Source of the DNA: Paludibacteraceae bacterium
GTDB taxonomy: Bacteria > Bacteroidota > Bacteroidia > Bacteroidales > Paludibacteraceae
Assembly (NCBI GenBank): GCA_017557345.1
Contig: JAFYZR010000080.1
Location: forward strand, 1 to 45,408
Length of the DNA: 45,408 nt
Reading direction: 5' to 3'
Shown here in pieces: positions 20,378-39,158 of the stretch. The position numbers were made by a program, and so were the translations under genes. Under the pieces are notes generated by a model. That model had not been told where the DNA came from and searched no databases. It saw nothing but the letters and a program-made list of their open reading frames with translations. Position 1 is the first letter of the stretch. Each line of letters opens with the position of its first letter.

Positions 20378-21175
20378 CTATTCTTTGCACTCAAATAAGA
20401 GCATAACAGCGCCGCCCAGTTCAATCTTGTCTCCGTCCCGGAGGCGGAATCTGGACTCTGAATCCCGGAGTTCAAACTCTTCGCTGCCGTTTGTTCCCTC
20501 GCGGATAACGGCAGTTTTGCTGCCGTCCGGGCGGCATCCGTAAGGCGTGGCCTTCAAGTAAAATGCGTCATTGTCATAAATCAAATCAGCATGGGTGCCA
20601 CTGACGTGGTAATTGAGTTCTCGGATGGTTTTGTCTTTCTCTTGATCGTTGATTGCAATCTGGTTCTCACGGAATGGGCGTTCCTTGTTGGCTTCGAATT
20701 CCCCACGTCCAATGTGGAAGACCATCCTTTCTGTAACAAAAAGGTCATATGATTTCTTCATCATGCTACCGCGTCCTCCTGCAACCGATACTCGAGCTTT
20801 GCCGTTCATCTTCTTCCTTACATCTTCCTCAATCAGGAAAGAAAACCAAATGGCGTCTTCCAGGATACAGGAAGATTGGATTTTGGATGATGGCTTACCC
20901 ATCCTGACAATGATTTCGGCTTTCGTAAGAGCTGTAATAAGGTGATTTTCGATTTCGGTGTGAAGCCCCGTTACAAACTCATCATTTTTGATAAGCCGGA
21001 TATACACAGGATCGGCGACCCAGATTGTTACCTGTCTGATGTTGCCAGTCCCTTCATTGAAGCGGAGTTGCTTGAATCTGGACAGTAGCGCATTGATGAT
21101 GCTCTTCTTTGCATCTACAGCATTGTCTATCTGAGAAGCGTCTGGTTTCCGGCCGAATAAATTACCGATTTTCAT
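20378..21175 (-). CDS. FHA-domain phosphothreonine reader
   Basis: 265 residues. The N-terminal region (about 20-140) is an alpha/beta domain that faintly resembles the non-FHA domain of actinobacterial FhaA (QVTIWVADPVYIRLI...EIENHLITALTKA). The C-terminal FHA domain (about 145-264) has the expected sites: GRG (156-158), N171, and SGTHADL (192-198) where most FHA domains have SxxH. It should bind phosphothreonine peptides made by the kinase encoded upstream. Its gene starts 2 bp after the small helical gene, so they form one unit. Confidence 0.85.
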   Translation of the reverse strand: MKIGNLFGRKPDASQIDNAVDAKKSIINALLSRFKQLRFNEGTGNIRQVTIWVADPVYIRLIKNDEFVTGLHTEIENHLITALTKAEIIVRMGKPSSKIQSSCILEDAIWFSFLIEEDVRKKMNGKARVSVAGGRGSMMKKSYDLFVTERMVFHIGRGEFEANKERPFRENQIAINDQEKDKTIRELNYHVSGTHADLIYDNDAFYLKATPYGCRPDGSKTAVIREGTNGSEEFELRDSESRFRLRDGDKIELGGAVMLLFECKE

Positions 21176-21177
21176 GA

Positions 21178-21618
21178 CTATGCCTTGTTTAATTGATTGT
21201 TAATAAAGTTTATATCTACATCAGTGAATGTAATACTGTCCATGTTCCCGACCAATATCGACATTGCCGACTTTAGCGCTTCACATGACTTTTTGTATTT
21301 CTTTTGTTTGAATAAAACATCAGCGTATTTGATGTAAGTGGTAATAGCAATGTTAAACTGTTCTGGATGCTCTTCTCCATAGCTCGTCAACAGCTTTATC
21401 ACCTTCTCGTATTGTGTCTGTTCCTGGGGGTAATTGTCCATAAGATCCAAAGCATCACAGTAACTGTTTATCACCTTTGCGTAATCAGTCAGCAAGTCTG
21501 TATCAATCCCCGTTTCAGAATTGAGTGATTCCGAAATGAGCGCCTCGTACTTAACCACCATTCGATGTGCGGTTGCGGCATAGCTGAAAGCTGATTCGTA
21601 TTTATTTTCTTCGGTCAT
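21178..21618 (-). CDS. Small TPR-like helical protein
   Basis: 146 residues from the ATG at 21616-21618. A longer frame reaching 21798 is open but would read through the promoter at 21636-21685 and into the kinase gene, so the short start is chosen. It is all-helical, with a TPR-like repeat (AITTYIKYADVLFKQKKYKKSCEAL) and no signal peptide. It is the first gene of a second transcription unit (helical protein, FHA, unknown, BrxL-like). It may be an adaptor. The function is unknown. Confidence 0.65.
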   Translation of the reverse strand: MTEENKYESAFSYAATAHRMVVKYEALISESLNSETGIDTDLLTDYAKVINSYCDALDLMDNYPQEQTQYEKVIKLLTSYGEEHPEQFNIAITTYIKYADVLFKQKKYKKSCEALKSAMSILVGNMDSITFTDVDINFINNQLNKA

Positions 21619-21635
21619 TGTATTCAAATCCAAAG

Positions 21636-21685
21636 CAAAGATAGTTGGCAGACAAGGCTTGGCCATGTTAGAAATAGTATTTAAC
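21636..21685 (-). promoter_or_regulatory. Island promoter P1 (GTTAAA-N9-TAACATGG-N19-TATCTTTG)
   Basis: Read on the minus strand: GTTAAA (21680-21685), TAACATGG (21663-21670), TATCTTTG (21636-21643), with 9 and 19 bp between. The ATG is 17 bp after the -7 box. The same layout occurs at 28965-29014, 29121-29170 and 35086-35135. GTTA and TAAC form an inverted half-site pair just upstream of the -33 position, suggesting an activator or special sigma factor. Confidence 0.75.
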
Positions 21686-21719
21686 GAGCAGTTGAGATAT
21701 CTTCTTGAAAATAAATACC

Positions 21720-22988
21720 TTACAATTGTGAAAGAATTACCTCCGGAAAGAAAAACAACACTCCCGCTACGACAGCCAATATGACAACCATAACCCACAA
21801 CGGGTTAATGGTAGAGAAAAACTTCCTGGTCTTTTTAAGGCAACGGAGTTTTGCGAATCTGCGTTCCCAGCCTTTGATGGCTAGCTCTTGCTGCTTTATC
21901 AGTTGGCTTTTTTGCTCTACTGCCACTGTGAGTTCTTTCACCATTATGACATTTGCCTCAACACTCGTGGAGCCCGGTTGGGCATAACTCGAGACTTCCT
22001 TGAGGAAGAAACTGTTAATCTCTTTTGCGTTGGCGAAGCGATCTTCAGGATTCTTTGCCAGGCATTTGTCAATCATCCTTTCCAGCCAGTCGGGGTAATC
22101 TTTTTGGTATTCTTTATCCGTTCCATAAACACTCTCAAAAGCCGCCTTTCTTAGTTCTAAAATAGACGGGACCGGGCTGGACGAGTGAAAGTCGTACATG
22201 TACTTAGAGGAGTAGTCATTTTCATTAGCATCTTTGGAAGGGAACGGGACTCTTCCAGCCAATACTTCAAACAGAACGATGCCGATTGAGTACACATCGG
22301 AGCGAAACGAGACTTTCTTGTCTAGTATTTTTTCGGGAGCAGAATATGCCAGTGCGCCTTCACCCAGTCCACTCTCGCGCACAGCAGTCCCGCCCTGCAT
22401 GGATATGCCAAAGTCCAGAAGGATATATCGGCCGTCGTACCGGTTGCGAATAATATTACTTGAATGGATATCATTATGAACTATTCCATACTCATTGATG
22501 AGCCGTTCCCTGGTATGCTCATCAATAATAACCTTAGAACCGTCGTTGGGATCTGTGGGGATGTTATCCTTCTCTCTGTCATAAAGGTAATCGGTAACAC
22601 CGACATGGCAGTATTCCATTGCACTAAGAAGGTCACGGCAGCAGTTCAACACCTCGTTGAGAGGAAGAAACTTTGTCGATGCAACATAATCCGCCAGAGG
22701 CGTACCGTCAATATAATCCATTTCGTAGAAAGCCTGGTTCTCCAGCAAATCAGCCTTGTGCACGCTTACGATGTTGGGATGTGAACAATTACCCAAAAGG
22801 GTTAAGCGGCGATACTCTTTGAGGAAGGATTGGTACTTCTTGGTATCCTTGCTTTCTACATATCCATTGAGGATCTTGACTGCACGGATATATCCCTGTT
22901 CATGGTGCTTCACCTTGTATACTGTACCATTTGAACCGGCGCCTAGATTTGCCAGCAACTCATACTGGCCGAGAATCAGTCTGCTCAT
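21720..22988 (-). CDS. Membrane-anchored Ser/Thr protein kinase
   Basis: 422 residues. A Hanks-type kinase domain (about 8-335): glycine loop GAGSNG (16-21), AVK lysine K38, catalytic HND (171-173, asparagine replacing the usual HRD arginine, Asp173 intact), DFG (192-194) and APE (217-219). A roughly 40-residue insertion lies before the catalytic loop. A coiled-coil segment and one transmembrane helix (about 398-415, WVMVVILAVVAGVLFFF) end the protein, leaving almost nothing outside the membrane, so it has no PASTA-type sensor. HND instead of HRD suggests activation without the usual activation-loop arginine contact. It starts 12 bp after the SEDS-PBP stop and should phosphorylate partners bound by the FHA proteins. 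Confidence 0.9.
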   Translation of the reverse strand: MSRLILGQYELLANLGAGSNGTVYKVKHHEQGYIRAVKILNGYVESKDTKKYQSFLKEYRRLTLLGNCSHPNIVSVHKADLLENQAFYEMDYIDGTPLADYVASTKFLPLNEVLNCCRDLLSAMEYCHVGVTDYLYDREKDNIPTDPNDGSKVIIDEHTRERLINEYGIVHNDIHSSNIIRNRYDGRYILLDFGISMQGGTAVRESGLGEGALAYSAPEKILDKKVSFRSDVYSIGIVLFEVLAGRVPFPSKDANENDYSSKYMYDFHSSSPVPSILELRKAAFESVYGTDKEYQKDYPDWLERMIDKCLAKNPEDRFANAKEINSFFLKEVSSYAQPGSTSVEANVIMVKELTVAVEQKSQLIKQQELAIKGWERRFAKLRCLKKTRKFFSTINPLWVMVVILAVVAGVLFFFPEVILSQL

Positions 22989-23000
22989 TTTATTATAGTC

Positions 23001-26000
23001 TTAATAGATTTCATAACCACATTCCTGCAATACCGGCAGTACGGTTTCCGCCGTCAACTTTACAGCAGCACTGGACCCGAGTGCTCCGAGTCGCTCCATT
23101 CTAACGGCAATGGCCAGCGGTGATTTCTCGTTCTTCGAATAAATGGAGCATATATACCATCCATCATTAGGTTTGCTCTCTACCACGGTCCCGTCTTCAG
23201 TAACATATATCCAGGTCCTTTCTGGAGTTCCAGTTTTTGAAAACATCCTTTCCGGCTCATCCTTACCGGGGAGGTTGATGCCATTCCGCCGATGCTTATC
23301 AGCCTCCGCTTGCATATCTGACTTAAGGTTGGCGGTGCCGGATTTGACAATCCATTCGTTCCTGGCATCTTCATTAAGATCATACCTCGTCGGGAAAAAG
23401 CGGCCGTCATTAGCAACGATGGAAGCAACGCGTGCCATATTCAAGGGCGACGCATAAAGATGCCCCTGTCCGTATGCAATTCCCCAATAATCAGCCGAGC
23501 CTTTGAATCGGCTCAGTTTTCTTCTGTCTCCTTTGGGCCTATAGTTAGTTTCGTAATCAGAATACAACCCGAGACCTTCAGCAGCCAGATAGTTGACTTC
23601 ATCAAAGAACTGAGCTCTGCTGGTAAACTCCGAATCGTAAAAGAAATAAGGAGTTATATTGCTCCTGCCTTCATGCCCATCGAGTCTGGCCCCTACGACA
23701 CCGTAGATATAGCCAAGCGACTCATAAAGCTTCTTGTCGTTCAAGAGATTGACGAAGTAACAGTTCGATGATTTAACAATTGCGTCCGTCATCGTTACAT
23801 TATTGCTCACCCTTCGGCCATTGATGGAAGAGAATGGCTCTTTTACTCTTCCGTTTTCAATTATTTCTGAATAATCGACGTCGTATGTGGCTTTAGATGC
23901 GGCATTCCCCATATTATGATATGCAGAAAGCGAAGTCATGATCTTTGCCGTGCTCCCAGGGTGTGTCTGATAAGTCAGGCCCAGATCTCGGTCTGTGTAT
24001 GCCTTTTGATACGGATTCCTTTCATTGTACACATAAACATTGTTTCTCTCCAGGGAATCCAGGATTTCTTTCTGCGGTAGAGGGTAATTAGAAGAACAGA
24101 GCAAATCTCCGTTATTTGCCTTGAGGACCACAACAGATATCCTGAGTTTCAGATTACGGTTAAGAACATCAGACTGAGATACATACTCTGATAGTTTATT
24201 CTGTAGTTTTGCCTGGAGAATGGCGTCAACAGTAAGATTGACTGGGGACGCCTCTTCACGAGTGAGATCCTTTATCTCCCGGTGACCAGCAATACCTCCC
24301 TTAAGCATTCCCCGAAGCTCACTGTAATCATATTCGGCCACCCTGTAATCGTCATTTCGCTTGAATGCCGGCAAGAAACGGCTCGGCTTATAGGCAAGAA
24401 TCGGAATCTCTTGAATGATAGCCCGTCCCTTTGCATCCCTTTTCAGATTATCGAATCCTCGTAGCCGTGCGAGATAACGGTTCTCTGCATTGAGGCCATA
24501 AGGATTGGAAACAGAAGAATTCCACTGCAGTTTATCGTTATAATCTCCGGTCATAAAGAACGTATGCATCCCAAAAGGATAATAACGTTTCGCTCTCGTG
24601 TCCGTTGTGTTCTCTCCAATCATTTTTCCTCCAAGCACGATAGATAAAGAGTCTTCTGCATAACGAGCTTTATCAATATCGCTGGTGGCCAGGATGTAAC
24701 CATTCCTATCGTAGATGGTCTCCATTTGTAGTTTGTCGATAAGCACTTGAATTCTTGGGTTATATACATATGTTCGTATACCGGCGTTGTTGGTGAACAG
24801 CCCGGGGCGCACAAGTGTCGCGTCCCTGTTGAACATCATATACCCGGAAAGGACTATTGCCAATATACCACCCACGGTTGCATATGAAAGGCAACTGGAC
24901 GCTAACGACGTTTTGTATTTCTTTACATCTTCCTCCTGGTATTGCCCGGCTTTTTCGCGAGATATGGCAACGATGATTCCAAATGCCACCATATTAAGAA
25001 CGACACTTGTTTTCGCGTAGCTCAAGAATGGGACAGCAATGCCGGTAAGTGGAATAAGGCCCGTGGAGCCCAAGCCGACAATAAGGAACTGAACCACCGT
25101 CACAATTCCGATTCCGAAAGCCAGATAGAAAGAGAAAGGATGACCAGACTTCTTTCCGGCACGAATGGCTCTGAAAAGCAATAGTCCCATCAAGACAATC
25201 ACAAGAAAGAGCATGCGCCAGCCCATCTGCTCTCCAATGGTGGCCATTATCAGATCTGTGTGATAGGCAGGAATTAAGTTCTCATTTCCTAAACCTACGC
25301 CTTGTCCGCTGTATCCTCCAGTGCTATAAGCCCAAATCGCTTCTGCTACCTGGTCTCCGCCAAGAACGTTGGTATTATCCCAAACTCCGGAGCCAGTCAT
25401 GGCCAGCCGTGATTCTAAACGTTCAGCCTGGTGAGTAAAGCCCATCGCCCCAAGTATGGGACCACCGGCCACAAACAGGACAAACAACAGATTCATGAAA
25501 ATGGCGCTTTCATACACCCGCTTTTTTGCCAGTAAATAAATACCCAGCCAGAGAATGAGCCACAGGACCGCAGCAAGTATCACCGACAGGTTTGTACCCC
25601 AGATAGTATTGGCAAGCAATGTCAGAGCTACGAAGGTGAATACACCTATCAGTAAATGGCCGAAATCGCCACGAGCAAGAGAATACATGAATACAAAGGA
25701 GACAAGAAGTACCAGGGCCGGGCCCATATCGGAGAGTGCGCCCATATATAGCAGAGACACAACGATGATTCCAGTCGCTATAATAGCCACTTTTCGTATC
25801 TGGATAGGCACCGACACTTTATCCGCTTTGTCCGAGAATTTTCTGAGCGCCGTGGCGTTCTCTGCAAAATAGGAAGCCATAAAGATGACGATCAAAAATT
25901 TGCAAAGCTCTGACGGTTGAAGGAAGAATAAGTTAATCTTGGCGGTAGAACCGACCGGGGCTGTTCCAAATAAAGCCAGTAGCAGTATCAGGAGCAAAGC

Positions 26001-27212
26001 AACAATAAGGTACGTAACACCTTTGTACTTGGGCGCAAAGGGTTCAAAGGGAATATTGCGCCCCATAGCCGAATATCCTGAAGCATAGATTTTTGCGATA
26101 TGGATATTGGAAAACACACACATCAGTGAAAGACCAAGGAGCGATGCCTGCACCATTTCAAATCCAAGTGGACGGTCAAGCACAGGATTAGAGGCACCGA
26201 TCAGGGCAAGTACACCAATACTGTTCAGTACCATAATCAGGGGGAAGAGCAACATATCGCCGCATACATTTCTCCTTCTACCAATGATGCCTGTTAGAAA
26301 GAAGACTACCCACCAGGCAGAGAGCAACAAGATAGCGTAGAGTCTTAAATTGTTGAGATAACTCCCTGGCGTACGAACGGTAATCACTGGCCCCTTTTTG
26401 ATTTCCTTGTAATCAGCCGGTGCAAAAATGGGAATACGATGCTCTTTTTGGAAGAAACCATAAACGTGTTTCCCGCCCTGCAGCATATCAGAAACAGAAC
26501 CTTTTGAGGCGCCATATTCGAACCCTTCGCAGATAGGAACAATGCTATAGTATCCATCTTGAACAACGAACTCCACTCGTCCTTCAGAATCGGTCATTAG
26601 ATATGCGACAGTGGAATCAGCGGCCATCTGGTCCTCTTCTACATTAATGTAGAAATGCCTTTTAAGTCTTACCGGGACGCCTTGCAGTCCATTATGGGTC
26701 TGCTCGTCCCTCACAGTTGCAATGATATGGCAAGATGAGGAATCAGTCTCATGAAAGAAGGAACTCACATCATTCATTTCCAGCCAGTCCAGATATTCGT
26801 CATTTATACCCAAGAGAGCTTTGGAGGCTTTTACCCGGGCTTTTAGATTCATTCCTCCAGCGGTGTCGGCATAAGCGGCTGGTATGGAATTCACAGCTAT
26901 ATTGAGGGAGCCAAGGTTCTTGAATGCTTTTCTTCGAGAGTTGGCCAAGAGGGATACGATATGAGATGCTGTCGCATTGGCATCCCTCTGGTCTGTAAGG
27001 ATGTTTTGCCTCATGAGCAAAGTGGCAAGTTCCTGGACCTTGCATTCTACGTCAAGGTTCATAGACTGCCCATTATCCTGTAGTCTCTCGACTTCATCCA
27101 GATAGGGCTTTTGGTTATTGTAAAGTCGTACAAAACCACAAATGATGAGAAAGGTGGCCACAAGCATCCACACGGCTGCTTTCCCGAAATTAGGTTTGCT
27201 ATTCATGTCCAT
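23001..27212 (-). CDS. RodA/FtsW (SEDS) glycosyltransferase fused to a class B PBP transpeptidase
   Basis: 1403 residues, joining in one chain the two enzymes that normally pair to build peptidoglycan. After one N-terminal membrane helix comes a roughly 260-residue periplasmic region with a carboxypeptidase-regulatory-like strand set (IIATVRDEQTHNGLQGVPV). The multi-helix SEDS domain (about 290-770) carries HTD (651-653) in the region of the essential SEDS aspartate. The PBP part (about 790-1403) has all three active-site motifs: S1087-T-A-K1090, S1148-S-N1150 and K1326-T-G1328. Both activities look intact. It lies 2 bp from the PP2C gene and 12 bp from the kinase gene. Housekeeping Bacteroidales RodA and PBP2 are separate proteins, so this is an accessory synthase under kinase/phosphatase control. 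Confidence 0.9.
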   Translation of the reverse strand: MDMNSKPNFGKAAVWMLVATFLIICGFVRLYNNQKPYLDEVERLQDNGQSMNLDVECKVQELATLLMRQNILTDQRDANATASHIVSLLANSRRKAFKNLGSLNIAVNSIPAAYADTAGGMNLKARVKASKALLGINDEYLDWLEMNDVSSFFHETDSSSCHIIATVRDEQTHNGLQGVPVRLKRHFYINVEEDQMAADSTVAYLMTDSEGRVEFVVQDGYYSIVPICEGFEYGASKGSVSDMLQGGKHVYGFFQKEHRIPIFAPADYKEIKKGPVITVRTPGSYLNNLRLYAILLLSAWWVVFFLTGIIGRRRNVCGDMLLFPLIMVLNSIGVLALIGASNPVLDRPLGFEMVQASLLGLSLMCVFSNIHIAKIYASGYSAMGRNIPFEPFAPKYKGVTYLIVALLLILLLALFGTAPVGSTAKINLFFLQPSELCKFLIVIFMASYFAENATALRKFSDKADKVSVPIQIRKVAIIATGIIVVSLLYMGALSDMGPALVLLVSFVFMYSLARGDFGHLLIGVFTFVALTLLANTIWGTNLSVILAAVLWLILWLGIYLLAKKRVYESAIFMNLLFVLFVAGGPILGAMGFTHQAERLESRLAMTGSGVWDNTNVLGGDQVAEAIWAYSTGGYSGQGVGLGNENLIPAYHTDLIMATIGEQMGWRMLFLVIVLMGLLLFRAIRAGKKSGHPFSFYLAFGIGIVTVVQFLIVGLGSTGLIPLTGIAVPFLSYAKTSVVLNMVAFGIIVAISREKAGQYQEEDVKKYKTSLASSCLSYATVGGILAIVLSGYMMFNRDATLVRPGLFTNNAGIRTYVYNPRIQVLIDKLQMETIYDRNGYILATSDIDKARYAEDSLSIVLGGKMIGENTTDTRAKRYYPFGMHTFFMTGDYNDKLQWNSSVSNPYGLNAENRYLARLRGFDNLKRDAKGRAIIQEIPILAYKPSRFLPAFKRNDDYRVAEYDYSELRGMLKGGIAGHREIKDLTREEASPVNLTVDAILQAKLQNKLSEYVSQSDVLNRNLKLRISVVVLKANNGDLLCSSNYPLPQKEILDSLERNNVYVYNERNPYQKAYTDRDLGLTYQTHPGSTAKIMTSLSAYHNMGNAASKATYDVDYSEIIENGRVKEPFSSINGRRVSNNVTMTDAIVKSSNCYFVNLLNDKKLYESLGYIYGVVGARLDGHEGRSNITPYFFYDSEFTSRAQFFDEVNYLAAEGLGLYSDYETNYRPKGDRRKLSRFKGSADYWGIAYGQGHLYASPLNMARVASIVANDGRFFPTRYDLNEDARNEWIVKSGTANLKSDMQAEADKHRRNGINLPGKDEPERMFSKTGTPERTWIYVTEDGTVVESKPNDGWYICSIYSKNEKSPLAIAVRMERLGALGSSAAVKLTAETVLPVLQECGYEIY

Positions 27213-27214
27213 TG

Positions 27215-27979
27215 TTATTCAGTTGAAATAGTTTCTGCAATAACTATTGTAATATTGTCTTTGCCGCCTTTTTTGTTGGCATATTCAATAAGGCATTTAG
27301 TCTTCTCTTCAGTGGAGTAAACCGTATTGAGAATTGCTTTGATCTCAGAAGAAGAAACCATGTCCGTCAAGCCGTCAGAGCAAAGAAGGAGTGAGTAATC
27401 GTCAGGAAGAGGGATAATTGTCGAATCGACAAATCCGTCATCAAGCCGATGGTATTCTTCACCGACCATCCTGTCAATAATCGATCTGCGTGGGTGGTTC
27501 ATGGCTTCCTTCTCCGTCATGGCGCCAGTGTCTTCCAACTCGCCGACAAGGCTGTGATCACGAGTTAATTTTCGTAGAGTGCCGCCAGAATATAGGTAGC
27601 ATCTGGTGTCGCCCACATGAGATAACAACAAAAGACCATTAGCCTTGTCAATCACTGCGGCAGTCAGAACGCATCCCATAGAGGATAACTTCTTGCGCTC
27701 GGCTCTCCGTCTCACAATCTTGTTATTAGCCACACATACCGCCTCCTCTAAAAGGGAAAGCCTGGAAGCATCTTTATTGAATCCCGTCAGGTATTCAACG
27801 ATTGCGTCACGTGCAATTGCGCTGGCTACCTCTCCTCCTTCATATCCTCCGCAGCCGTCCACGACAACCAGAAGAAGATAATTGCCATCCCAAACCTGGG
27901 AGATAGAAAAGGTGTCCTCATTGTTTTTGCGGACAAGACCGATATCTGTGGCACCGAAATATGATAGATTACCTTTCAC
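27215..27979 (-). CDS. PP2C-type Ser/Thr phosphatase
   Basis: 254 residues, a complete soluble PP2C domain. Metal-binding and catalytic motifs are present in order: RKNNED (17-22), VVDGCGG (39-45), HVGDTRCY (121-128), CSDGLTD (200-206) and GGKDNIT (238-244). It should reverse the kinase encoded downstream. Its ATG overlaps the previous stop by 4 bp and the SEDS-PBP gene follows after 2 bp, so the genes are tightly coupled. This is the PstP position in actinobacterial fhaA-pstP-rodA-pbpA-pkn operons. No membrane segment is visible. Confidence 0.9.
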   Translation of the reverse strand: MKGNLSYFGATDIGLVRKNNEDTFSISQVWDGNYLLLVVVDGCGGYEGGEVASAIARDAIVEYLTGFNKDASRLSLLEEAVCVANNKIVRRRAERKKLSSMGCVLTAAVIDKANGLLLLSHVGDTRCYLYSGGTLRKLTRDHSLVGELEDTGAMTEKEAMNHPRRSIIDRMVGEEYHRLDDGFVDSTIIPLPDDYSLLLCSDGLTDMVSSSEIKAILNTVYSTEEKTKCLIEYANKKGGKDNITIVIAETISTE

Positions 27980-28935
27980 TTGATGATGGAAAAATTGATT
28001 TGAAAACCGTTGAAGAGCATCAGGCTACTGTTGTCCTGAATGGGCTTGGGCTTGTCTGGAGAAAGGTGGATGGATTCGTTCAAGAGCGTTTCAGCATCGC
28101 CGGTAATGAAGAATTTCCCACCCTTCTCGACTGTGATGTGAAGGGTGAAGTCTTCGGGAAGGTCATCATCAATGACGGCAACCTCATGCGAAGAATCCAG
28201 CGTGGACTGGTTGAACTTTGGACCAGTTACGTAAAGGGATTCTTTTGTCATGTAGAAGAACTGGGATTCGTCAGTAAAACTGCCAGACTTCAACTTCAGG
28301 ATAGCATGAGCGACAAACTGGTCCATCGTCTTTTCGAGATCACTTACGGGGGTCTCTACCACCTTCTCAAAACGGTCGAACTTTACTTCGAAGCAATCCT
28401 TATCGAGGACAGTTACTCCTTCTACCGAAATGTTCTCTGTCCGTTCCCGCTCGATCTTCTTGCGGTCGCCTTTTGTGGGGAGGATGGTCATCACGCAAGA
28501 GGTCTTTTCCTGTTTGCCGGCACCGCCGCCTTTCTTTCTGTCCACATACAAGTAGGAGAAGATGACGATTTTGTCGTCCTTGAGCGCTTTGTTCTTTTCT
28601 CCCAGGTCAATGTCGTCAACAGCTTTTATGAAACAGAAGCGCCAGCACCGAGAATGGGGCTTGTAATTAGGGTAACTGTGTACTGCCTTACGGAGGACAT
28701 TGTGGCAACGATTGACCACTTCTCTGGTAGTGTGAGCGAAACTATCCTCCTGTTCCTTATATATATCCGCAGGGAGATAGATGACATACTTTGTGTCGAA
28801 AAGAAGTCCCTCGTGAGTGGTGTTCTTCTTCAAGCTGTCATAGAATATCTTGAAGATGTGGTCCGACAAATCCTGTCTGGTAAACATGTCGTTCCCAAAC
28901 AGATTCCTCTTGAAATAATTGATCAATGTTCCCAT
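27976..28935 (-). CDS. FhaA-like protein with divergent FHA domain
   Basis: 319 residues from the ATG at 28935. Upstream ATGs (to 29016) would place the P2 promoter inside the coding region, so the later start is preferred. The N-terminal half (TKYVIYLPADIYKEQEDSFA followed by a helix) recalls the DUF3662/FhaA N-terminal domain. The middle is a Lys-rich linker (DRKKGGGAGKQEK). The end (DFTLHITVEKGGKFFITGD...MLFNGFQINFSI) has FHA-like strand spacing but not the full phosphothreonine motif. As first gene before PP2C it holds the fhaA position. A 350-codon frame on the opposite strand is a shadow. Family call is tentative. Confidence 0.6.
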   Translation of the reverse strand: MGTLINYFKRNLFGNDMFTRQDLSDHIFKIFYDSLKKNTTHEGLLFDTKYVIYLPADIYKEQEDSFAHTTREVVNRCHNVLRKAVHSYPNYKPHSRCWRFCFIKAVDDIDLGEKNKALKDDKIVIFSYLYVDRKKGGGAGKQEKTSCVMTILPTKGDRKKIERERTENISVEGVTVLDKDCFEVKFDRFEKVVETPVSDLEKTMDQFVAHAILKLKSGSFTDESQFFYMTKESLYVTGPKFNQSTLDSSHEVAVIDDDLPEDFTLHITVEKGGKFFITGDAETLLNESIHLSPDKPKPIQDNSSLMLFNGFQINFSIIK

Positions 28936-28964
28936 GGTATTGCGTTTTGTTTTGGTTTCTGGTG

Positions 28965-29014
28965 CAAAAATAGGTACAGCGTTCCGCCTGGCCATGTTAA
29001 GAGTTTTTTTTAAC
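28965..29014 (-). promoter_or_regulatory. Island promoter P2 (GTTAAA-N9-TAACATGG-N19-TATTTTTG)
   Basis: On the minus strand: GTTAAA (29009-29014), TAACATGG (28992-28999), TATTTTTG (28965-28972), spacings 9 and 19. It drives the FhaA-like/PP2C/SEDS-PBP/kinase operon; the ATG is 29 bp beyond the -7 box. Together with P3 it forms an inverted repeat, CCGTGTTAAAA through TAACATGG (28992-29018 against 29117-29143, both 27 bp). Confidence 0.75.
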
Positions 29015-29120
29015 ACGGAGGGTCTATAAGTGGCTGAATAACAACAGAAAAGGGAGCGACAGACTACGCTTCGTCAAACATGCGTGAAGCGGTGATAAAT
29101 CGCATCAGGAAAGCGCCCGT

Positions 29121-29170
29121 GTTAAAAGCAATCCTTAACATGGCGAAGCAGAATCAACCCTATATCTTTG
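29121..29170 (+). promoter_or_regulatory. Island promoter P3 (GTTAAA-N9-TAACATGG-N19-TATCTTTG)
   Basis: GTTAAA (29121-29126), TAACATGG (29136-29143), TATCTTTG (29163-29170), the same spacings as P1, P2 and P4. It drives the divergent plus-strand cluster; the chosen ATG is at 29194. It is diverged enough from P2 in the N19 stretch that spacing and boxes, not recent duplication of the whole region, appear to be what is kept. Confidence 0.75.
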
Positions 29171-29193
29171 CTCCCAGACAAAAGCTCGCGAAT

Positions 29194-30021
29194 ATGAATC
29201 TGAAAGACATCAAAGAAAAGATTGAAGAATCAATGCCAGGGATAGGCGTCATACAAATCAGTGACGAAAAGCTGATAATACCCAACACGTATGGTTTAGA
29301 TGGAATACATTCGACACTCAGTTTGTATGGCGAATCAAACTGCTTGTTAAAGCATCCCGCAATTCTGTATGAGAAGGCAGATCAGGCAAGCATTTTTCTC
29401 AGTATATGTAATAGTAAGGCACCTCAATACCCGGGCATTGAATTCCTTGATGATCCAATCTCAAAGTGCATCATGGCAGTTAAGCCACTGAACATAATGA
29501 GCGAATCCGGCTTTTTAAAAAGCATCCCCGATGAACTTGCCGATTTCATCTTCTCAGTTAAAGCAATTCGGGATTCTATGGCCACGGTAGTTTTGGACAC
29601 GATATCGCCAGTGAGCATTGAAGAACCAGCACGTTCTCTATTCTACTTATCTCTCATGCAATCGTATGATTGCCCCTGGGGTTGGAATACAATGTGGAAC
29701 GGACATATAGATTGGAATGATATCCGTACAGTTTGGAGACAGAGTAAATCAACACGCCTGATACCTCTGATAAAAGACGGAGGTATTTATGACACTATCT
29801 CTAAAGAGGTTGAACTTTTCCTGAATGGAGTCCCTGGCTATGTGGTTGCATACTTTGGACTGCCGTATTACGCCTACGACACATGCGATATGATGGCAAT
29901 AGACAATATTGCCCGGCGGCTCTATTCTCAGTACAGTTGTCATGTTCTGAAGGGCGTAAAAGTGGTGGATAGTATGGCTGCGCCACATATGATTGCATTA
30001 ATCGCAATTCTGAAGTTCTAA
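29194..30021 (+). CDS. Uncharacterised island protein
   Basis: 275 residues from the ATG at 29194. A longer open frame from 29080 would translate the P3 promoter. No signal peptide; one hydrophobic stretch near the end (MAAPHMIALIAILKF). Mixed alpha/beta with aromatic-rich segments (YDCPWGWNTMWNGHIDWND, YVVAYFGLPYYAYD). I do not recognise a family. It is the first gene under P3 and ends 4 bp before the next ATG, so it belongs to the divergent operon. Confidence 0.55.
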   Translation: MNLKDIKEKIEESMPGIGVIQISDEKLIIPNTYGLDGIHSTLSLYGESNCLLKHPAILYEKADQASIFLSICNSKAPQYPGIEFLDDPISKCIMAVKPLNIMSESGFLKSIPDELADFIFSVKAIRDSMATVVLDTISPVSIEEPARSLFYLSLMQSYDCPWGWNTMWNGHIDWNDIRTVWRQSKSTRLIPLIKDGGIYDTISKEVELFLNGVPGYVVAYFGLPYYAYDTCDMMAIDNIARRLYSQYSCHVLKGVKVVDSMAAPHMIALIAILKF

Positions 30022-30025
30022 TTCA

Positions 30026-30724
30026 ATGAAAAGCACGATTCAAATACTATTTACTGTCATAATAATGACAGGTTGTCGCTCAGTTGGAGGACACATAGTT
30101 ACCTCTCCAGATGGAATGTTCAGAATCACTTGCATAAAGGACGAATCCATATGGGCCCACACGGGGATTACGGAGTGGACTAACGAGTATCAGTTTGTGT
30201 CAGAAGGCAGTCGGATAAACGACACCTCAAGGTCACTGGCATTTGATTATTATTGTGAAGATGACTCACTTAACCAATACTATAAGACTCTGCATCAAGA
30301 GGAGAGGAGCGAATTAGAGACGGGAATACAACCCATCAGAATTGATCAGATTGCACTATCTGATGGCACACCAATCTATTTCGTATATGCATTAACCTAT
30401 GCAGACTCGAGTTATCATGACTATTACTATTCTTACACTGCTCTCTGCATCAAAGAGGGTGCAATCCGTAAATATCCCATTTTTCAGGGAATGATGGAAT
30501 TGGCCAGGCCGTATAGCGATATTCTTATCATAAACCCTGCAAGTATAGACTTTGATTTCACGTGTCATCCGGCTTATTATGAGTATTGGATTGATCACGT
30601 AATCATGGATGTACAGGTGGAAAACAGAATCCGATTGAATCCCGAGACAGGCAATCTGGACGTAGCCGCAGGCGAACTTATCCTTTCTTTTGTAAACGAC
30701 TCATTTTCAAATATTATCTATTAA
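30026..30724 (+). CDS. Predicted lipoprotein, unknown
   Basis: 232 residues with a lipoprotein signal peptide ending at Cys17 (VIIMTGC). The mature part is beta-rich and acidic, with many Tyr (SSYHDYYYSYTALCIKEG). Probably attached to the inner leaflet of the outer membrane. It lies between the first island gene and the thioredoxin gene, with 4- and 11-bp gaps, so it is co-transcribed with them. No family is recognised. Confidence 0.6.
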   Translation: MKSTIQILFTVIIMTGCRSVGGHIVTSPDGMFRITCIKDESIWAHTGITEWTNEYQFVSEGSRINDTSRSLAFDYYCEDDSLNQYYKTLHQEERSELETGIQPIRIDQIALSDGTPIYFVYALTYADSSYHDYYYSYTALCIKEGAIRKYPIFQGMMELARPYSDILIINPASIDFDFTCHPAYYEYWIDHVIMDVQVENRIRLNPETGNLDVAAGELILSFVNDSFSNIIY

Positions 30725-30735
30725 AAACAACCACT

Positions 30736-31299
30736 ATGCGTATCATTACATCTCTTTTCTTATCTGTCCTGCTTGCCTTATTCAGCGGCAATGCGAAAGC
30801 CAAAGTTTCTCCAGATTTTGCCATGGCAGAGACGCAACTTGACTCCCAGATTCAAGATGAACCTGAATCCCTGATCGGGAAGCATTTCCTGGACGTAAAA
30901 GAAGCCGATCCCAGCGGAAAAGCCCATCGGCTTAGCAAGTATGCAGGCAAGGGGAAATGGGTTCTTGTCGATTTTTGGGCCTCTTGGTGTGGTCCCTGCC
31001 GGGCAGAGATGCCGAATGTTGTCGCTGCCTACAAGAAATACCATGACAAAGGCTTTGAAATCGTAGGCTTCTCTTTTGATGTTGACAAAGATGACTGGGA
31101 AAACGCCATCAAATCCTGGGATATGCCTTGGATTCATCTCTCAGACCTCAAAGGGTGGCAGAGCGAAGCCGGACGTATCTATGGCATTCATGGGATTCCT
31201 GACAACATTCTCATCAATCCAGACGGAATTATCGTCGCCCGTGACCTTCGCGGATCTGAGTTGGAAGAAAAATTATCGGACATATTCGGTAAATACTAA
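30736..31299 (+). CDS. TlpA-like thioredoxin, periplasmic
   Basis: 187 residues with a cleavable signal peptide (LFLSVLLALFSGNAKA). The TlpA/ResA thioredoxin fold has active site W84-C-G-P-C88 and a cis-proline loop (IHGIPDN). It should reduce or isomerise disulphides in the periplasm. It is found in the same plus-strand cluster as a second thioredoxin-fold protein without cysteines (32274-33284). Intact and probably active. Confidence 0.85.
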   Translation: MRIITSLFLSVLLALFSGNAKAKVSPDFAMAETQLDSQIQDEPESLIGKHFLDVKEADPSGKAHRLSKYAGKGKWVLVDFWASWCGPCRAEMPNVVAAYKKYHDKGFEIVGFSFDVDKDDWENAIKSWDMPWIHLSDLKGWQSEAGRIYGIHGIPDNILINPDGIIVARDLRGSELEEKLSDIFGKY

Positions 31300-31307
31300 A
31301 GCGTGAA

Positions 31308-32156
31308 ATGGATAGTAGTGACATCAAGGACTTGTTCCCCGAATACAAACTTGACTGGGACGATCCTTATACTGAGGGGTTCGTAATGCTGGTTTCAACG
31401 GCAATAGTCAAACTATACGGTGCTTTTAAGGAAGAACAAGCACCATTTGTGGCGTTTAACGAATTCGTTGAAGCTAGAGAATTCTTCTACTTTATGCCAG
31501 AAACCACTCAGAAAAGAACTCAGCCGCTGATGGATGATCTTGATAAAATGTGGGAAGACGTCTCATCATCAAAGGCCGATCAGTTCTGCTGCATCTGTGC
31601 CAAAGTGGCTCAAGGCAATAATGAGCAGAGTCCAGAATTGTGCGAGATATGTATAGAGATCCTGGAGGCCATTTTTGCCCTGGATGGAAAGCTGCCTGAA
31701 GCGCAACGTATTTTTGATGCAGCCCACCATGCCGCCATGAGTAAATCTATTAATGATGATGCCTGCATCGCGCTCCTGTTCATTGTGTGTGGGCGTTTAT
31801 GGTACAAATGCCTCGGATATTCATGCACAGAAGAAGAGATTCTGCTATCCGAGGGCATAAGATACCATTTGAAAGCCAGGGAGAAGGGAGGTTATAACCC
31901 ATCAAATTTGTATTGTTTGCACGTTTCTTCGGCAATCTACGATAGTACATTTGTCAGGTTATCAAAAGGAATTCATAATGACGAGATGCTTGAGTTTATC
32001 AAATCCGCTTATGAGCTACATAATCATCTTGAACCGGAAATCGCGCATAAGCAGAACGAGCAACTATATAAACTGACTGGAATCCCGTCGGGAATCAACT
32101 CAAAAGATAATCTACATCTTATGTCTCAATTCCCGGCATCAGACCTTCCCAATTAA
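31308..32156 (+). CDS. Uncharacterised helical protein
   Basis: 282 residues, no signal peptide. Mostly helical, with a TPR-like stretch and a cysteine-rich segment (QFCCICAKVAQ and ELCEICIEILEAIF). It starts 8 bp after the thioredoxin stop and ends the first plus-strand block; 117 bp separate it from the next gene. I recognise no family. The cysteines could bind metal or be partners of the thioredoxin, but the protein itself looks cytoplasmic. Confidence 0.55.
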   Translation: MDSSDIKDLFPEYKLDWDDPYTEGFVMLVSTAIVKLYGAFKEEQAPFVAFNEFVEAREFFYFMPETTQKRTQPLMDDLDKMWEDVSSSKADQFCCICAKVAQGNNEQSPELCEICIEILEAIFALDGKLPEAQRIFDAAHHAAMSKSINDDACIALLFIVCGRLWYKCLGYSCTEEEILLSEGIRYHLKAREKGGYNPSNLYCLHVSSAIYDSTFVRLSKGIHNDEMLEFIKSAYELHNHLEPEIAHKQNEQLYKLTGIPSGINSKDNLHLMSQFPASDLPN

Positions 32157-32165
32157 ATAATCGGT

Positions 32166-32217
32166 GTATAATCCTATTCATATCAGTGGCTTGGTTCTAG
32201 AATTAATTGTATCTTTG
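32166..32217 (+). promoter_or_regulatory. Promoter, degenerate fifth member of the island set
   Basis: TATCTTTG (32210-32217) is preceded by TATCAGTGG (32181-32189) and GTATAA (32166-32171), the last two 9 bp apart. This recalls the island consensus but with changes and one extra base before the -7 box. It would transcribe the genes from 32274. Confidence 0.4.
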
Positions 32218-32273
32218 TTGCATACATTAGCCAAGACAATAACCGTAAAACAAAATTACAAAGTCATAAATCT

Positions 32274-33284
32274 ATGTCGTCCTATCTAACAGTTAAAGTC
32301 ATAGCTATTGTTGTAATGCTAGTGATTTCTATCGCCGTATTTGCCAACAACAAATCCAGCAAAAAGCGGGAAGCAGAAGCATCAGTCAGCGTTACAACTC
32401 AACAACCACAACAGAGTGAGTACCAACTGAGGAAAGAGGGATTACTTCGTTTTGAGTATTCTCTTTTACCAACATATGTGGATCTCTTGAAGAAAGATCC
32501 AGACCAAGAAGTCAGATTAATTAGCGCATCAATTTGGAAGAAGGATATTGAATCCGTAGCGAATCCGGTGTATATCGAATGGGACGAGATATCATGTGAA
32601 GTCTTGGGTGATTGGAAAACCGAGTATGTCTTCTTTTATGATTTCCCGACGCCTTTCGAAAGTCCCCTAGCCAAATATGGTGCTATATACGTAAATAAGG
32701 ATAAACAGATTTACAGCTACTTTACCCTGGAAAAATCGGCCAGAGGCTATATGCTGTGTTCGTTTAGCAACGAGGATCACCTCAATTATGGTGAGAAAGG
32801 CGATATGTCCAAGAAAGAATTCTTTAGAGAAATCTGTGGTATTTTGAAGATTGATCCAAACTCATTTAATGGATGGCGTCTAGCTAAGAGTAAATCATCG
32901 GTCGTTAATTATACCGATTTTGGCGGTGGCAGAAAAGAATTCTCTGTATCGGATCTTGAAATAATGACAGATCTTAAAGACGATAACTATGAGAGTTTTA
33001 TCGCAAATCACAACTATGCAGTAGTGTGTTTTTATGACACGTATCGGGGACCAAGCAAATTGATGCTAAACCTTCTGTCCGAATATGCAGAGGATTATAA
33101 AGATAGAGTTGTGGTAGGCAAGTATGATGTGTATGGGGATGGTAATGAGACCGTTAGAGAAAGTTTGAATGTGACAGCCATGCCTACGTTTTTGTTCTAT
33201 AAGAATGGACAAATCATACAAAAACACATCGGTATTTGTGAGAGGGATGTTATGAAATCTTGGTTTGAAGCACTGCTCTATTAG
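32274..33284 (+). CDS. Membrane-anchored protein with cysteine-less thioredoxin domain
   Basis: 336 residues: an N-terminal membrane anchor (about 5-24, VKVIAIVVMLVISIAVFAN), an unfamiliar alpha/beta middle, and a C-terminal thioredoxin fold (about 235-336). At the WCGPC position (about 257-261) it has YRGPS, so both redox cysteines are lost. The cis-proline region (TAMPTFLFYKNGQ) and the overall strand order are kept. It may bind peptides or the radical SAM/zinc-ribbon pair that follows, rather than do redox chemistry. Confidence 0.7.
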   Translation: MSSYLTVKVIAIVVMLVISIAVFANNKSSKKREAEASVSVTTQQPQQSEYQLRKEGLLRFEYSLLPTYVDLLKKDPDQEVRLISASIWKKDIESVANPVYIEWDEISCEVLGDWKTEYVFFYDFPTPFESPLAKYGAIYVNKDKQIYSYFTLEKSARGYMLCSFSNEDHLNYGEKGDMSKKEFFREICGILKIDPNSFNGWRLAKSKSSVVNYTDFGGGRKEFSVSDLEIMTDLKDDNYESFIANHNYAVVCFYDTYRGPSKLMLNLLSEYAEDYKDRVVVGKYDVYGDGNETVRESLNVTAMPTFLFYKNGQIIQKHIGICERDVMKSWFEALLY

Positions 33285-33326
33285 AGTCTTATCAAGTGTA
33301 TCTCGGATAATCGCTATTTTTTTATT

Positions 33327-33941
33327 GTGAGTACAACCGCTGACATATTTGGAATTTCGCGACTGCGCATTGAAACAGATGGTGACGGAGTACGGTCTCT
33401 TGTGTGTTTTAGTAACTGCCCTTTGAAGTGTAAATACTGCATTAATAAGGAGCAAATGCGCAGACTACCTATTTCTTATACTCCAGCGTCCCTTCTTGAT
33501 GTCCTTTTGATTGATGACATCTTTTTTAGGGTATCGCCAGCCGGCGGAATAACTTTTGGCGGTGGAGAGCCTGCCCTTCAAAGCGTTTTTATTGAGGAAT
33601 TTAGAAAGATATGTCCTAACGAGTGGACTCTTTATATAGAAACATCATTAAATGTGCCAATTGAACATGTTGAGCGGCTCTCTGGGTTAATAGATTACTG
33701 GTATATTGATATTAAGGATATGAACGAAGAGATATATCAGAAATATACCGGAGTTTCTAATCTACAAGTCAAAAAAAACCTGGAGTACCTTGTACAGGCA
33801 GGTGTAAAAGATAAAATAATGGTTCGTATCCCTTTAATTCCCGGGTACAATACATTAGGTGATGTGGATAAATCACAAAAACGAATACATTTATTGGGTT
33901 TGTCGTCAGAACAAAATTTTAAATACAAAATAACACAATAG
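33327..33941 (+). CDS. Radical SAM activase-type enzyme
   Basis: 204 residues, starting at a GTG (33327). The cluster motif C31-xxx-C35-xx-C38 (CPLKCKYC) binds a [4Fe-4S] cluster, and GGITFGGGEPALQ holds S-adenosylmethionine. Size and layout match the glycyl-radical activase/PflA-type group, and lack an extra cluster domain. No glycyl-radical enzyme is in the window. The next gene encodes a protein with a CxGTCPxC segment, a likely partner or substrate. Confidence 0.85.
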   Translation: MSTTADIFGISRLRIETDGDGVRSLVCFSNCPLKCKYCINKEQMRRLPISYTPASLLDVLLIDDIFFRVSPAGGITFGGGEPALQSVFIEEFRKICPNEWTLYIETSLNVPIEHVERLSGLIDYWYIDIKDMNEEIYQKYTGVSNLQVKKNLEYLVQAGVKDKIMVRIPLIPGYNTLGDVDKSQKRIHLLGLSSEQNFKYKITQ

Positions 33942-33955
33942 ATCATTATTAAGTT

Positions 33956-34660
33956 ATGGATGGTATCAAAAGATGTGAAATGTTTAGGGCCATAAGGAAA
34001 CGTCTCTGCGAGAATAATGGTATCCCTTTTATAGAAGAAGAATGCCCGAATCCGGACAAAAAATGCATTGGCACCTGCCCGGCGTGTGATTATTGGCTGA
34101 ATAGAATTAATGACTATCTGGCCCTCAAGCGAAAATCTGGCGAAGAGATAAATTATAGCGGCATCAAAGAGATCTATGAATCATATATAATCTCAAGTAG
34201 AATCAATAGTAATTCAGACTCTGTTGCCGGAGTGAAAACTGAAGAGAGGAGGTCTATTGAGCATGTTGATGGATATTTCAGCCCCCCGGAAAGGGACTTA
34301 TCCCATAGAATACTTCTTGAGGAGATTGAACGAGAAGACCCTGGTCGCGTGAAAGGGAAATTTACGGAAGACCACTGGGAAAGTCGAGAGGAACTTTATC
34401 GCCCACTCCAACTGGAGGAGGAAAGATTGAAGCATGAGATGGAAAGATTGGCAGAAGAAAGAGAACTTAGAGGAAAAGTGGTGCCAGACGAAAGGGAAAT
34501 GGGGGAAATAATGCCCGATGTTGAGAGGAAGAAGGAACTTTTAGAAGCAATGAAGGATCTTTCCCAGACGCAAAATAATGGGAAGAAGCGTTGTCCTATT
34601 TGTGGCCAAGAGTTACCTGATGATTTTAGGATATGCCCTGTCTGCGGTCAAGCACTATAG
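33956..34660 (+). CDS. Cysteine-cluster/zinc-ribbon partner of the radical SAM enzyme
   Basis: 234 residues. The N-terminal part has C30, C37, C41 and C44 in CPNPDKKCIGTCPACD. A charged helical linker follows (EEERLKHEMERLAEERELRG), and the C-terminal zinc ribbon is CPICGQELPDDFRICPVCG. The CxGTCPxC pattern recurs in small Bacteroidales proteins next to radical SAM genes, as I recall, but I cannot confirm a family name. It ends the plus-strand cluster before a bidirectional terminator. Confidence 0.6.
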   Translation: MDGIKRCEMFRAIRKRLCENNGIPFIEEECPNPDKKCIGTCPACDYWLNRINDYLALKRKSGEEINYSGIKEIYESYIISSRINSNSDSVAGVKTEERRSIEHVDGYFSPPERDLSHRILLEEIEREDPGRVKGKFTEDHWESREELYRPLQLEEERLKHEMERLAEERELRGKVVPDEREMGEIMPDVERKKELLEAMKDLSQTQNNGKKRCPICGQELPDDFRICPVCGQAL

Positions 34661-34792
34661 TTCATCATTTCGACAATAACGTACTTGTTGCCCCAAAGGC
34701 TAATTTAATTAAGATAACCCCTCATGGTGGTACATCTATGAAAGATGCAGATAGTGTGATATCTAATCTCAATGCCCATTGAAAAGATATCT

Positions 34793-34831
34793 AAGAAGAG
34801 GCCCATAGAATCACGCTATGGACCTCTTCTT
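34793..34831. terminator. Bidirectional hairpin terminator
   Basis: AAGAAGAGG (34793-34801) pairs with CCTCTTCTT (34823-34831), and inside it CCATAG (34803-34808) pairs with CTATGG (34816-34821). It separates the convergent radical SAM cluster and the 60-residue gene. U-rich tracts are short. Confidence 0.6.
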
Positions 34832-34844
34832 GGATTACGGCCGA

Positions 34845-35027
34845 CTAATCATCTGAATCTTTGTCGAACGCCGAGTCGATGGCGCTCTGCAGGCGGTTCT
34901 CACGGTCACAGTCGAGGAAATAACTCTCGACGGCGGTGTGCCCCTGTTCTGTTGTTACGATGATGTCGGTGTAGCCATCCTCACGGGAGATCTCCTGGAT
35001 GTCACGAATTGCGCTTGATTGTGCCAT
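34845..35027 (-). CDS. 60-residue acidic protein under the island promoter
   Basis: MAQSSAIRDIQEISREDGYT begins a 60-residue protein; the rest is acidic (FDKDSDD end). No signal peptide, no family recognised. A promoter identical in architecture to P1-P3 lies upstream (35086-35135) and a strong hairpin follows, so it is a real, independently transcribed gene. Small size and shared control suggest a regulator, antitoxin-like or adaptor role, but this is a guess. Confidence 0.65.
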   Translation of the reverse strand: MAQSSAIRDIQEISREDGYTDIIVTTEQGHTAVESYFLDCDRENRLQSAIDSAFDKDSDD

Positions 35028-35085
35028 GGTATTTTTATTTATACCCTACTCTTACAGCTTTGTAGGTCTTGCTATCATCTGAAGG

Positions 35086-35135
35086 CAAAGATAGTACGAG
35101 TACAACAGGAGCCCATGTTATAAAAGACATTTAAC
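35086..35135 (-). promoter_or_regulatory. Island promoter P4 (GTTAAA-N9-TAACATGG-N19-TATCTTTG)
   Basis: On the minus strand: GTTAAA (35130-35135), TAACATGG (35113-35120), TATCTTTG (35086-35093), again 9 and 19 bp apart. The leader to the ATG at 35027 is about 58 bp. It lies more than 5.9 kb from P3, so the match is not due to local duplication. Confidence 0.75.
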
Positions 35136-35153
35136 TCAGACATCAATTAAAAA

Positions 35154-35174: not shown

Positions 35175-35229
35175 AGAACGGGAATTAGTTGTCTAAACAT
35201 ACTAATCAAGCATTATCGGTTTTTTATCA

Positions 35230-35264
35230 CCCTCACATCCCTCATTTCCCTCGCTTCCCTCATT
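35230..35264 (+). repeat. Four 9-bp direct repeats (CCCTCnnnn)
   Basis: CCCTC at 35230, 35239, 35248 and 35257, exactly 9 bp apart. The same unit occurs in the PriCT gene at 546, 564 and 573 (plus strand) and as GAGGG at 630, 639 and 657, all on a 9-bp register. Possible iterons. Confidence 0.5.
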
Positions 35265-35655
35265 CGATAGTATTGGGAGAACAGTGTCGATGTTCTTCGG
35301 GCCGATGTCCCCGGCCGCTCCGCGCCCGTTCAAGAAAAAAGCGGTCACAGTCAGTTCGCTACGCTAAAGCTGCGCTCACTCACTGTGGTTCCGTCCTCCG
35401 GGGCACGATGCGCCCCTCCGAACTACACTTATGGCAGCTTCACTGCGAGACTGTTCCTTCCGGGCTCCGCCACTCCAGTCACAGACTCGCGGTCGTTCCG
35501 CGCCCCGGCTCCGCCGGTTCCGTATGCGAGCGTCCGTACTTCAATTGAAGTGAGTACCAGTTCCAAGGCCGGTGCCAGAAAGCGGTCAGCCTGCGGCTGG
35601 TTTATCCCCACCCGGCGCAGCTTGCGCCTTCCCGCCCAATAAAGGAAAAGCGGTT

Positions 35656-35736
35656 GCGAGACTCTTGCCGGCCCCGCGCAGCGGCTGCTTGCCGCTGCTC
35701 TTTCCATCGCACACCCGAAGCCGGCAAGAGACTCGC
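35656..35736. repeat. Long helix with A·A mismatch, copy 1
   Basis: GCGAGACTCTTGCCGG (35656-35671) pairs with CCGGCAAGAGACTCGC (35721-35736) except for one internal A·A, and encloses an 8-bp hairpin. See the second copy at 36865-36923. Confidence 0.6.
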
Positions 35737-35824
35737 CCTGGAATCCCCCCTGGCCCCCGAGGGGGAAGACAAACGCCCGGGAGACGGAGTGCCGGTGCGA
35801 CCGTAAGTGCCTGAAATCCGCAAA

Positions 35825-37132: not shown

Positions 37133-37136
37133 AGTC

Positions 37137-37230: not shown

Positions 37231-37253
37231 AGCCCTTAACCTATATTTGAACT

Positions 37254-39157: not shown

Positions 39158-39158
39158 T

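Follow-up and report, generated by a model that had tools for sequence, protein, structure and literature searches.

Do several promoters on one contig of a Paludibacteraceae bacterium carry an operator of their own, and does that operator tie the genes around them into a single regulon? The question was raised for contig JAFYZR010000080.1 (GenBank assembly GCA_017557345.1), whose 45,408 nt are referred to here as the window, by an earlier note that described four promoters of one unusual architecture, P1 to P4, in a gene island at about 6.5-35 kb. A pattern search recovered all four at the positions described, as four exact copies of GTTAAA-N9-TAACATGG-N19-TATYTTTG with identical spacing. We consider it probable, with some reserve, that these are sigma-A promoters in which the -33 element has been replaced by an operator, and that a dimeric factor dedicated to the island, more likely an activator, co-regulates the four units that lie behind them. 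The sites are as follows.

P1, 21636..21685, minus strand: GTTAAA at 21685-21680, TAACATGG at 21670-21663, -7 box TATCTTTG at 21643-21636; 5' of the TPR/FHA/BrxL unit.
P2, 28965..29014, minus strand: GTTAAA at 29014-29009, TAACATGG at 28999-28992, -7 box TATTTTTG at 28972-28965; 5' of the FHA-PP2C-SEDS/PBP-kinase unit.
P3, 29121..29170, plus strand: GTTAAA at 29121-29126, TAACATGG at 29136-29143, -7 box TATCTTTG at 29163-29170; divergent from P2.
P4, 35086..35135, minus strand: GTTAAA at 35135-35130, TAACATGG at 35120-35113, -7 box TATCTTTG at 35093-35086; 5' of a 60-aa gene.

When up to 3 mismatches were allowed over the 22 specified positions, P1 to P4 were the sole matches in the 2.84 Mb assembly (G000), and a reversed-pattern control gave one. 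The earlier note had named copies upstream of housekeeping genes as the mark of a general promoter; the scan of the assembly found none at such genes. A 17-base form, GTTA-N11-TAACANGG-N19-TANNTTTG, was present in one of 358 genomes of the family, the window's own. The assembly is listed as 6.84% contaminated, and GC content is 0.429 in the island (6451-35200), 0.526 and 0.541 in its flanks (1-6450 and 35201-45408) and 0.437-0.476 in six stretches sampled from the assembly. The flanks, which are short, also differ in tetranucleotide pattern from the sampled chromosome. The contig as a whole could be a mobile element, or it could have been misbinned. Given the contamination and the flank composition, the motif is therefore to be called unique in this bin rather than in the genome.

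The upstream half alone (GTTAAA-N9-TAACATGG, up to 3 mismatches) gave 6 matches in the window with 3.9 expected, a number that 19 of 100 shuffles reached, and 216 matches in the assembly compared with 346 for the control. Partial matches to this half are noise, and the exact copies alone stand out. A fifth, degenerate copy claimed at 32166-32217 proved to be a box without the dyad, with no match within 3 mismatches. The last invariant base of P1 to P4 is a C directly after TTTG; such a C is common generally, following 67 of the 124 TAnnTTTG boxes in six sampled 20-kb stretches.

Conservation upstream of the boxes was measured with all 41 TAnnTTTG boxes of the window as anchors, by searching for the best four-way set of invariant columns in the 46 preceding bases. 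The best set was P1 to P4, with 14 invariant columns; 150 dinucleotide shuffles gave a mean of 5.8 and a maximum of 8, and a repeat with 60 shuffles gave the same picture. Shuffled windows averaged 27.5 boxes compared with the real 41, which flatters the real window somewhat, but the gap between 14 and 8 is still large, and a chance origin of the motif was rejected because no shuffle exceeded 8 columns. Outside the motif, the six pairs among P1 to P4 agree at 4-12 of 28 spacer positions, in keeping with the little spacer similarity described earlier, and at 27-34 of 108 flank positions. Since both values are near background and conservation is confined to the motif columns, as in a functional site, the copies do not stem from recent duplication.

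The conserved upstream part is a dyad, the full form of which is CCRTGTTAA-N9-TTAACAYGG (27 bp).

28992..29018, no strand assigned: palindrome at P2, an exact match to the consensus, with arms CCATGTTAA and TTAACACGG flanking 9 bp.
29117..29143, no strand assigned: palindrome at P3, exact to the same consensus.
35113..35139, no strand assigned: palindrome at P4, with 3 mismatches.

P1 does not fit the consensus within 3 mismatches. At that limit the palindrome occurred, besides P4, at two places on other contigs, and the reversed control gave 8 matches per strand; within 2 mismatches the assembly held no place other than P2 and P3. Given this control, only the exact copies at P2 and P3 are meaningful. 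The inverted GTTA/TAAC half-site pair recognised earlier is thus borne out, while its placement next to the -33 position was mistaken, as the right half-site overlaps that position.

According to the accessible text of two studies (PMC7366714, PMC9723704), the primary sigma factor of Bacteroidota has TAnnTTTG as its -7 element; the box is placed at -12 to -5 (PMC9723704), and the -33 consensus is TTTG (PMC7366714). As a yardstick for this assembly, six 20-kb stretches (L092-L097, 120 kb) from five contigs were used. TTG peaks sharply at a distance of 20 nt upstream of TAnnTTTG, where 27 of 124 boxes have it; each of the other 27 distances has 0-5 occurrences except 32 nt, with a smaller peak (10 of 124). 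Twenty-nine of the boxes are promoter-like, lying between genes and a short way ahead of a long frame; TTG stands at 20 nt in 19 of them and ATG in none. All four of P1 to P4 carry ATG in this register and none carries TTG (Fisher's one-sided test of 0/4 versus 19/29, calculated by hand, about 0.02). Because this ATG belongs to the right arm of the dyad, TAACATGG, the dyad takes over the -33 slot. P1 to P4 thus share with the sigma-ABfr promoters of Bacteroidota a TAnnTTTG box shortly before a gene (4/4), together with the following C, and differ from them in lacking TTG or TTTG at -33 (0/4), where a half-site within the 27-bp dyad region puts ATG in place of TTG (4/4). If the TTG-N20-TAnnTTTGC rule is valid beyond the 120 kb sampled, it offers a hint as to which Bacteroidota promoters probably depend on an activator.

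With TATYTTTG at -12 to -5, GTTAAA would lie at about -54 to -49 and TAACATGG at -39 to -32, so that the inverted repeat would be centred near -45 with its right arm over the -33 slot. A dimeric transcription factor dedicated to the island would bind the dyad and would more likely recruit RNA polymerase (class II activation) than block it, thereby controlling jointly the FHA-PP2C-SEDS/PBP-kinase unit (P2), the TPR-FHA-BrxL unit (P1), the divergent plus-strand cluster (P3) and the 60-aa gene (P4). The argument for activation is that none of the four has a consensus -33 element: by analogy with class II activators, a good -7 box with an off-consensus -33 element under a dyad makes a promoter more likely activator-dependent than repressed. 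The window also has what is looked for in an island regulon, an operator common to several promoters at a fixed position and rare elsewhere. Several observations weigh against this reading. The left arm of the dyad is weak in P1 and P4, and the eight other intergenic boxes on the contig likewise lack TTG at exactly 20 nt, with three of them showing it at 19 or 22. Should the contig be mobile or misbinned, its promoters may follow rules of their own and the sampled chromosome may be the wrong yardstick. Finally, no tested relative keeps the motif, which thus has no evolutionary confirmation.

Among other explanations, the dyad could be the operator of a repressor, a dimer over the -33 slot that silences the island as long as a signal is absent, in the manner of BrxR at a BREX island; this we regard as unlikely, although it has points in its favour. 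The polymerase footprint and the dyad overlap, BrxL is encoded in the island, a weak -33 element could merely set a low output, and the accessible part of PMC9122601 describes repression of a defence island through inverted repeats. A repressed promoter would, however, be expected to retain TTG, which is missing in four of four here and present in the 19 of 29 promoter-like sites of the assembly. The proposed system has in common with control by BrxR/CapW (WYL) proteins that a single regulator works through inverted repeats in an island with a BREX-type gene, but the arm and spacer lengths differ (11-bp arms and a 5-bp spacer for the BrxR site as given in that part of PMC9122601), and the dyad lies over -33 rather than downstream of the promoter. 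Moreover, no WYL regulator was found by Pfam in 24 of 24 island proteins, nor by PADLOC in the 20 of 24 scanned, the kinase being judged there on the best 25 of 32 matches.

An alternative sigma factor reading TAACATGG as its -35 element would account for the fixed 19-nt spacing at four of four sites, and we think it very unlikely, because the box on the downstream side is TAnnTTTGC, the consensus for primary sigma-A, and not an extracytoplasmic function (ECF) or sigma-54 element, and Pfam scans of the 24 island proteins gave no sigma-factor match. To our knowledge, sigma elements are not expected to be palindromic. We give even less credence to a coding origin of the conservation, in which the ATG of TAACATGG would be the true start and the proteins of P1 to P3 would share an N-terminal tag, MA[K/R]-x5-IFA. 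The frames from that ATG do open into the gene at P1, P2 and P3 (MAKPCLPTIFAL, MARRNAVPIFAP, MAKQNQPYIFAP), but GTTAAA-N9-TAAC before the ATG is conserved equally, and is palindromic at P2 and P3; the P4 frame ends after 13 codons, homologs of the P2 gene begin at about the later methionine, and TATYTTTGC is a usual promoter box in this assembly. As for old duplicated repeats or chance matches without function, P2 and P3 form an inverted repeat of 37 nt (81%), yet the flanks are unrelated, the motif columns alone are conserved, all four sites are properly placed before genes and the shuffles never came near; this explanation is scarcely credible.

The activator-type operator that we prefer would concern four transcription units, the genes of which are listed here.

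27976..28935, minus strand: opens the P2 unit; 319 aa, with homologs that occupy the FHA positions of similar islands; no Pfam FHA match itself.
27215..27979, minus strand: PP2C phosphatase (Pfam PF13672, 2.1e-16).
23001..27212, minus strand: SEDS (FtsW/RodA) and penicillin-binding transpeptidase in one 1403-aa protein (Pfam PF01098, 1.3e-35; PF00905, 2.1e-14), with relatives over most of its length.
21720..22988, minus strand: Ser/Thr protein kinase (Pfam PF00069, 1.1e-37).
21178..21618, minus strand: first gene of the P1 unit, TPR-like, 146 aa; weak TPR below the Pfam cut-off.
20378..21175, minus strand: FHA-like protein of the P1 unit; homolog annotated FHA, Pfam FHA 0.015, below the cut-off.
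18373..19821, minus strand: BrxL-type AAA+ ATPase (Pfam 9.2e-99; PADLOC BrxL 1.6e-160).
29194..30021, plus strand: first gene of the P3 unit, 275 aa, no family match.
34845..35027, minus strand: 60-aa gene of the P4 unit; homolog in the L040 island, 36%, E 2.5e-7 (against the open reading frames of 25 relative loci).
34793..34831, minus strand: terminator-like hairpin after the 60-aa gene, 16 pairs, the best of 23 found (shuffles, mean 15.4).

The P1 unit runs in the order TPR-like protein, FHA-like protein, small protein and BrxL. Judged by spacing and strand, the genes downstream of P1 to P4 probably form operons. In our own list of 38 genes, 12 TAnnTTTG boxes of the window are intergenic and at most 250 nt from a same-strand start; the dyad is present in four of these (P1 to P4) and in none of the other eight, which agrees with the statement that the remaining promoters lack it. 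The distance from box end to start codon of the same-strand gene is 18, 30, 24 and 59 nt for P1 to P4, and the predicted transcription starts would give 5' leaders of 13, 25, 19 and 54 nt. Four separate units behind one island-specific promoter and operator architecture are accordingly supported. Control of the whole 6.5-35 kb island, also claimed, is not supported, as the six boxes inside it include two without the dyad, at 18295 (minus) and 32210 (plus). These two boxes could drive the genes that run from 15745 down to 6505 and those between 32274 and 34660, though read-through from P1 and P3 may also occur.

As to what might bind the dyad, no island protein had a DNA-binding family match above curated cut-offs in the scans made, and DNA-binding-like stretches were seen in one of the scanned proteins.

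12073..13986, minus strand: candidate DNA-binding protein with two terminase-small-subunit-like helix-turn-helix (HTH) stretches (PHROG 4044, 1.4e-10).

Residues 315-480 of this protein matched PHROG 4044 at 7.9e-11 and a transcriptional-regulator PHROG at 6e-4; Pfam gave a sub-threshold HTH (0.088), and no solved structure was matched. By eye, the N-terminus resembles a zinc ribbon and an apparent transmembrane helix follows the second HTH. The gene lies downstream of P1 and also downstream of the dyad-less box at 18295 (minus). No relatives were found in viral contigs or in 11 genomes with similar islands, the latter search being weak evidence as it had no positive control; their absence there agrees, weakly, with that of the motif. 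It is rather a long shot that this protein is a membrane-tethered island regulator, with two HTH domains like those of phage terminase small subunits, which would bind the GTTAA-N9-TTAAC dyad and switch on the mycobacterial-type kinase/phosphatase/FHA/SEDS-PBP set and the BrxL ATPase upon envelope stress or attack.

Relatives of the island were sought in one genome per species, which gave 36 loci. In 22 of these (L039-L060) a SEDS-PBP relative is present with 30-39% identity in the best segment, spanning most of the length except in L053, at a contig end; the other 14 (L061-L074) were partial matches, mostly to a generic FtsW stretch, and were excluded. With a Spirosoma plasmid (L038) and two family loci (L036, L037), 25 relative loci were compared. 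Fused SEDS glycosyltransferase-PBP transpeptidase relatives occur in Spirosoma, Larkinella, Pedobacter, Paracnuella and Bacteroidales. The motif and three relaxed forms of it were absent from all 25 loci; in 11 of the relatives' genomes searched whole, two matches at the 3-mismatch limit were found in one and a single control match in another. An FHA profile search of 393 genomes of the order found one more island, in G722, which lacks the motif and whose best promoter pair has 22 of 46 bases in common. The gene set is scattered over Bacteroidota, and the operator is seen only in the present island.

These relatives also bear on the gene starts that the motif was said to fix. The start at 28935 is supported, as the N-termini of homologous FHA proteins fall near the corresponding position (L037, MLIDKIKNLFFGK; G722, MANFIKKALELFKG); those at 21618 and 29194 lack such support, no homologs of either gene being found among the 25 loci.

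Promoter sharing was tested in 10 relatives with 41-60 usable shuffles each. Values above every shuffle were obtained for L054 (pair, 25 versus 22; three-way, 12 versus 11), L058 (pair, 28 versus 26, stemming from one inverted repeat) and L053 (four-way, 5 versus 4). None comes near the window's 14 versus 8, and all three were rejected as comparable regulons. The L054 pair consists of promoters at 8977 and 9733 (plus), which share TCCGTRTTC ten nt before TACTTTTG and match at 25 of 46 upstream positions (shuffle maximum 22); TCCGTRTTC is possibly a different operator in that relative. A single viral match (L081) was taken as chance: it falls within an open reading frame of a phage contig, 7.1 kb of which show no trace of the island. 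No viral relatives of the FHA-position and BrxL proteins were found, nor near DNA matches to 21000-29300 in plasmids or to 35300-45400 in phages.

The gene content recalls several known systems. BrxL is the sole BREX protein detected, and a full BREX set (pglZ, brxC and a methyltransferase beside brxL) was not found by Pfam in 24 of 24 island proteins or by PADLOC in 20 of 24, the kinase being assessed in the PADLOC scan from the best 25 of 32 matches. A restriction/methyltransferase-like protein at 3021-5795, scanned against PHROGs only, lies outside the island. The P2 unit has the same gene order as the fhaA-fhaB-pstP-rodA-pbpA-pknA-pknB cluster of actinobacteria. That cluster likewise joins FHA, PP2C, SEDS, PBP and kinase genes (PMC6554272, accessible part); here SEDS and PBP form one polypeptide, in Bacteroidota and in a low-GC island with BrxL, and regulation is unrelated as far as known. 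The kinase-kinase-phosphatase (KKP) module of Pf prophages is alike in its Ser/Thr kinases and phosphatase, its mobile DNA and its link to phage defence, and is set apart by its description only, as SEDS-PBP and BrxL go unmentioned for KKP in the accessible text (PMC11341870). No literature on a SEDS-PBP/kinase/FHA set in Bacteroidetes was found, nor a paper on the dyad among the matches listed, in searches that left out most subscription papers. The type of regulon is known; as far as searches show, this particular example is new, and so is its gene content. An island in which a BREX-type ATPase is combined with a cell-wall synthase and Ser/Thr kinase signalling set is rarely encountered, and here it comes with a concrete operator at four sites; the exact operator sequence is usable as bait for the regulator and for learning the island's signal.

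The 60-aa protein had no relatives in plasmids or phages, and its homolog in L040 supports its being a real island gene. Between P4 and this gene lies a 35-nt leader element (35038-35072, minus strand) containing AAGACCTRCRAAGCYGTAAGAGYAGGGTATAAA, which is 31/35 identical to L040:23597-23631, beside the homologous gene (blastn E 0.002), and was found in one of 393 order genomes, the window's own, in addition to the L040 genome. Two of the four changes preserve the pairing of a 5-bp stem; the minimum-energy fold of the window leader lacks that stem, and z-scores are unremarkable. Rfam searches of the window and L040 gave one sub-threshold match, in L040 and not credible, and none for the leader element. 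L040 also contains a 41-nt repeat (23042-23082, 23313-23353 and 23634-23674; two copies identical, one 83%), which surrounds small-gene starts near the 60-aa homolog and whose core occurs in three copies only in that genome. In the right flank of the window, two similar gene sets (37254-41364 and 41749-45313) lie in opposite orientation, with proteins beginning MPRF.P.I and MQALPSIAFGGFSGSAKGVTARQV.

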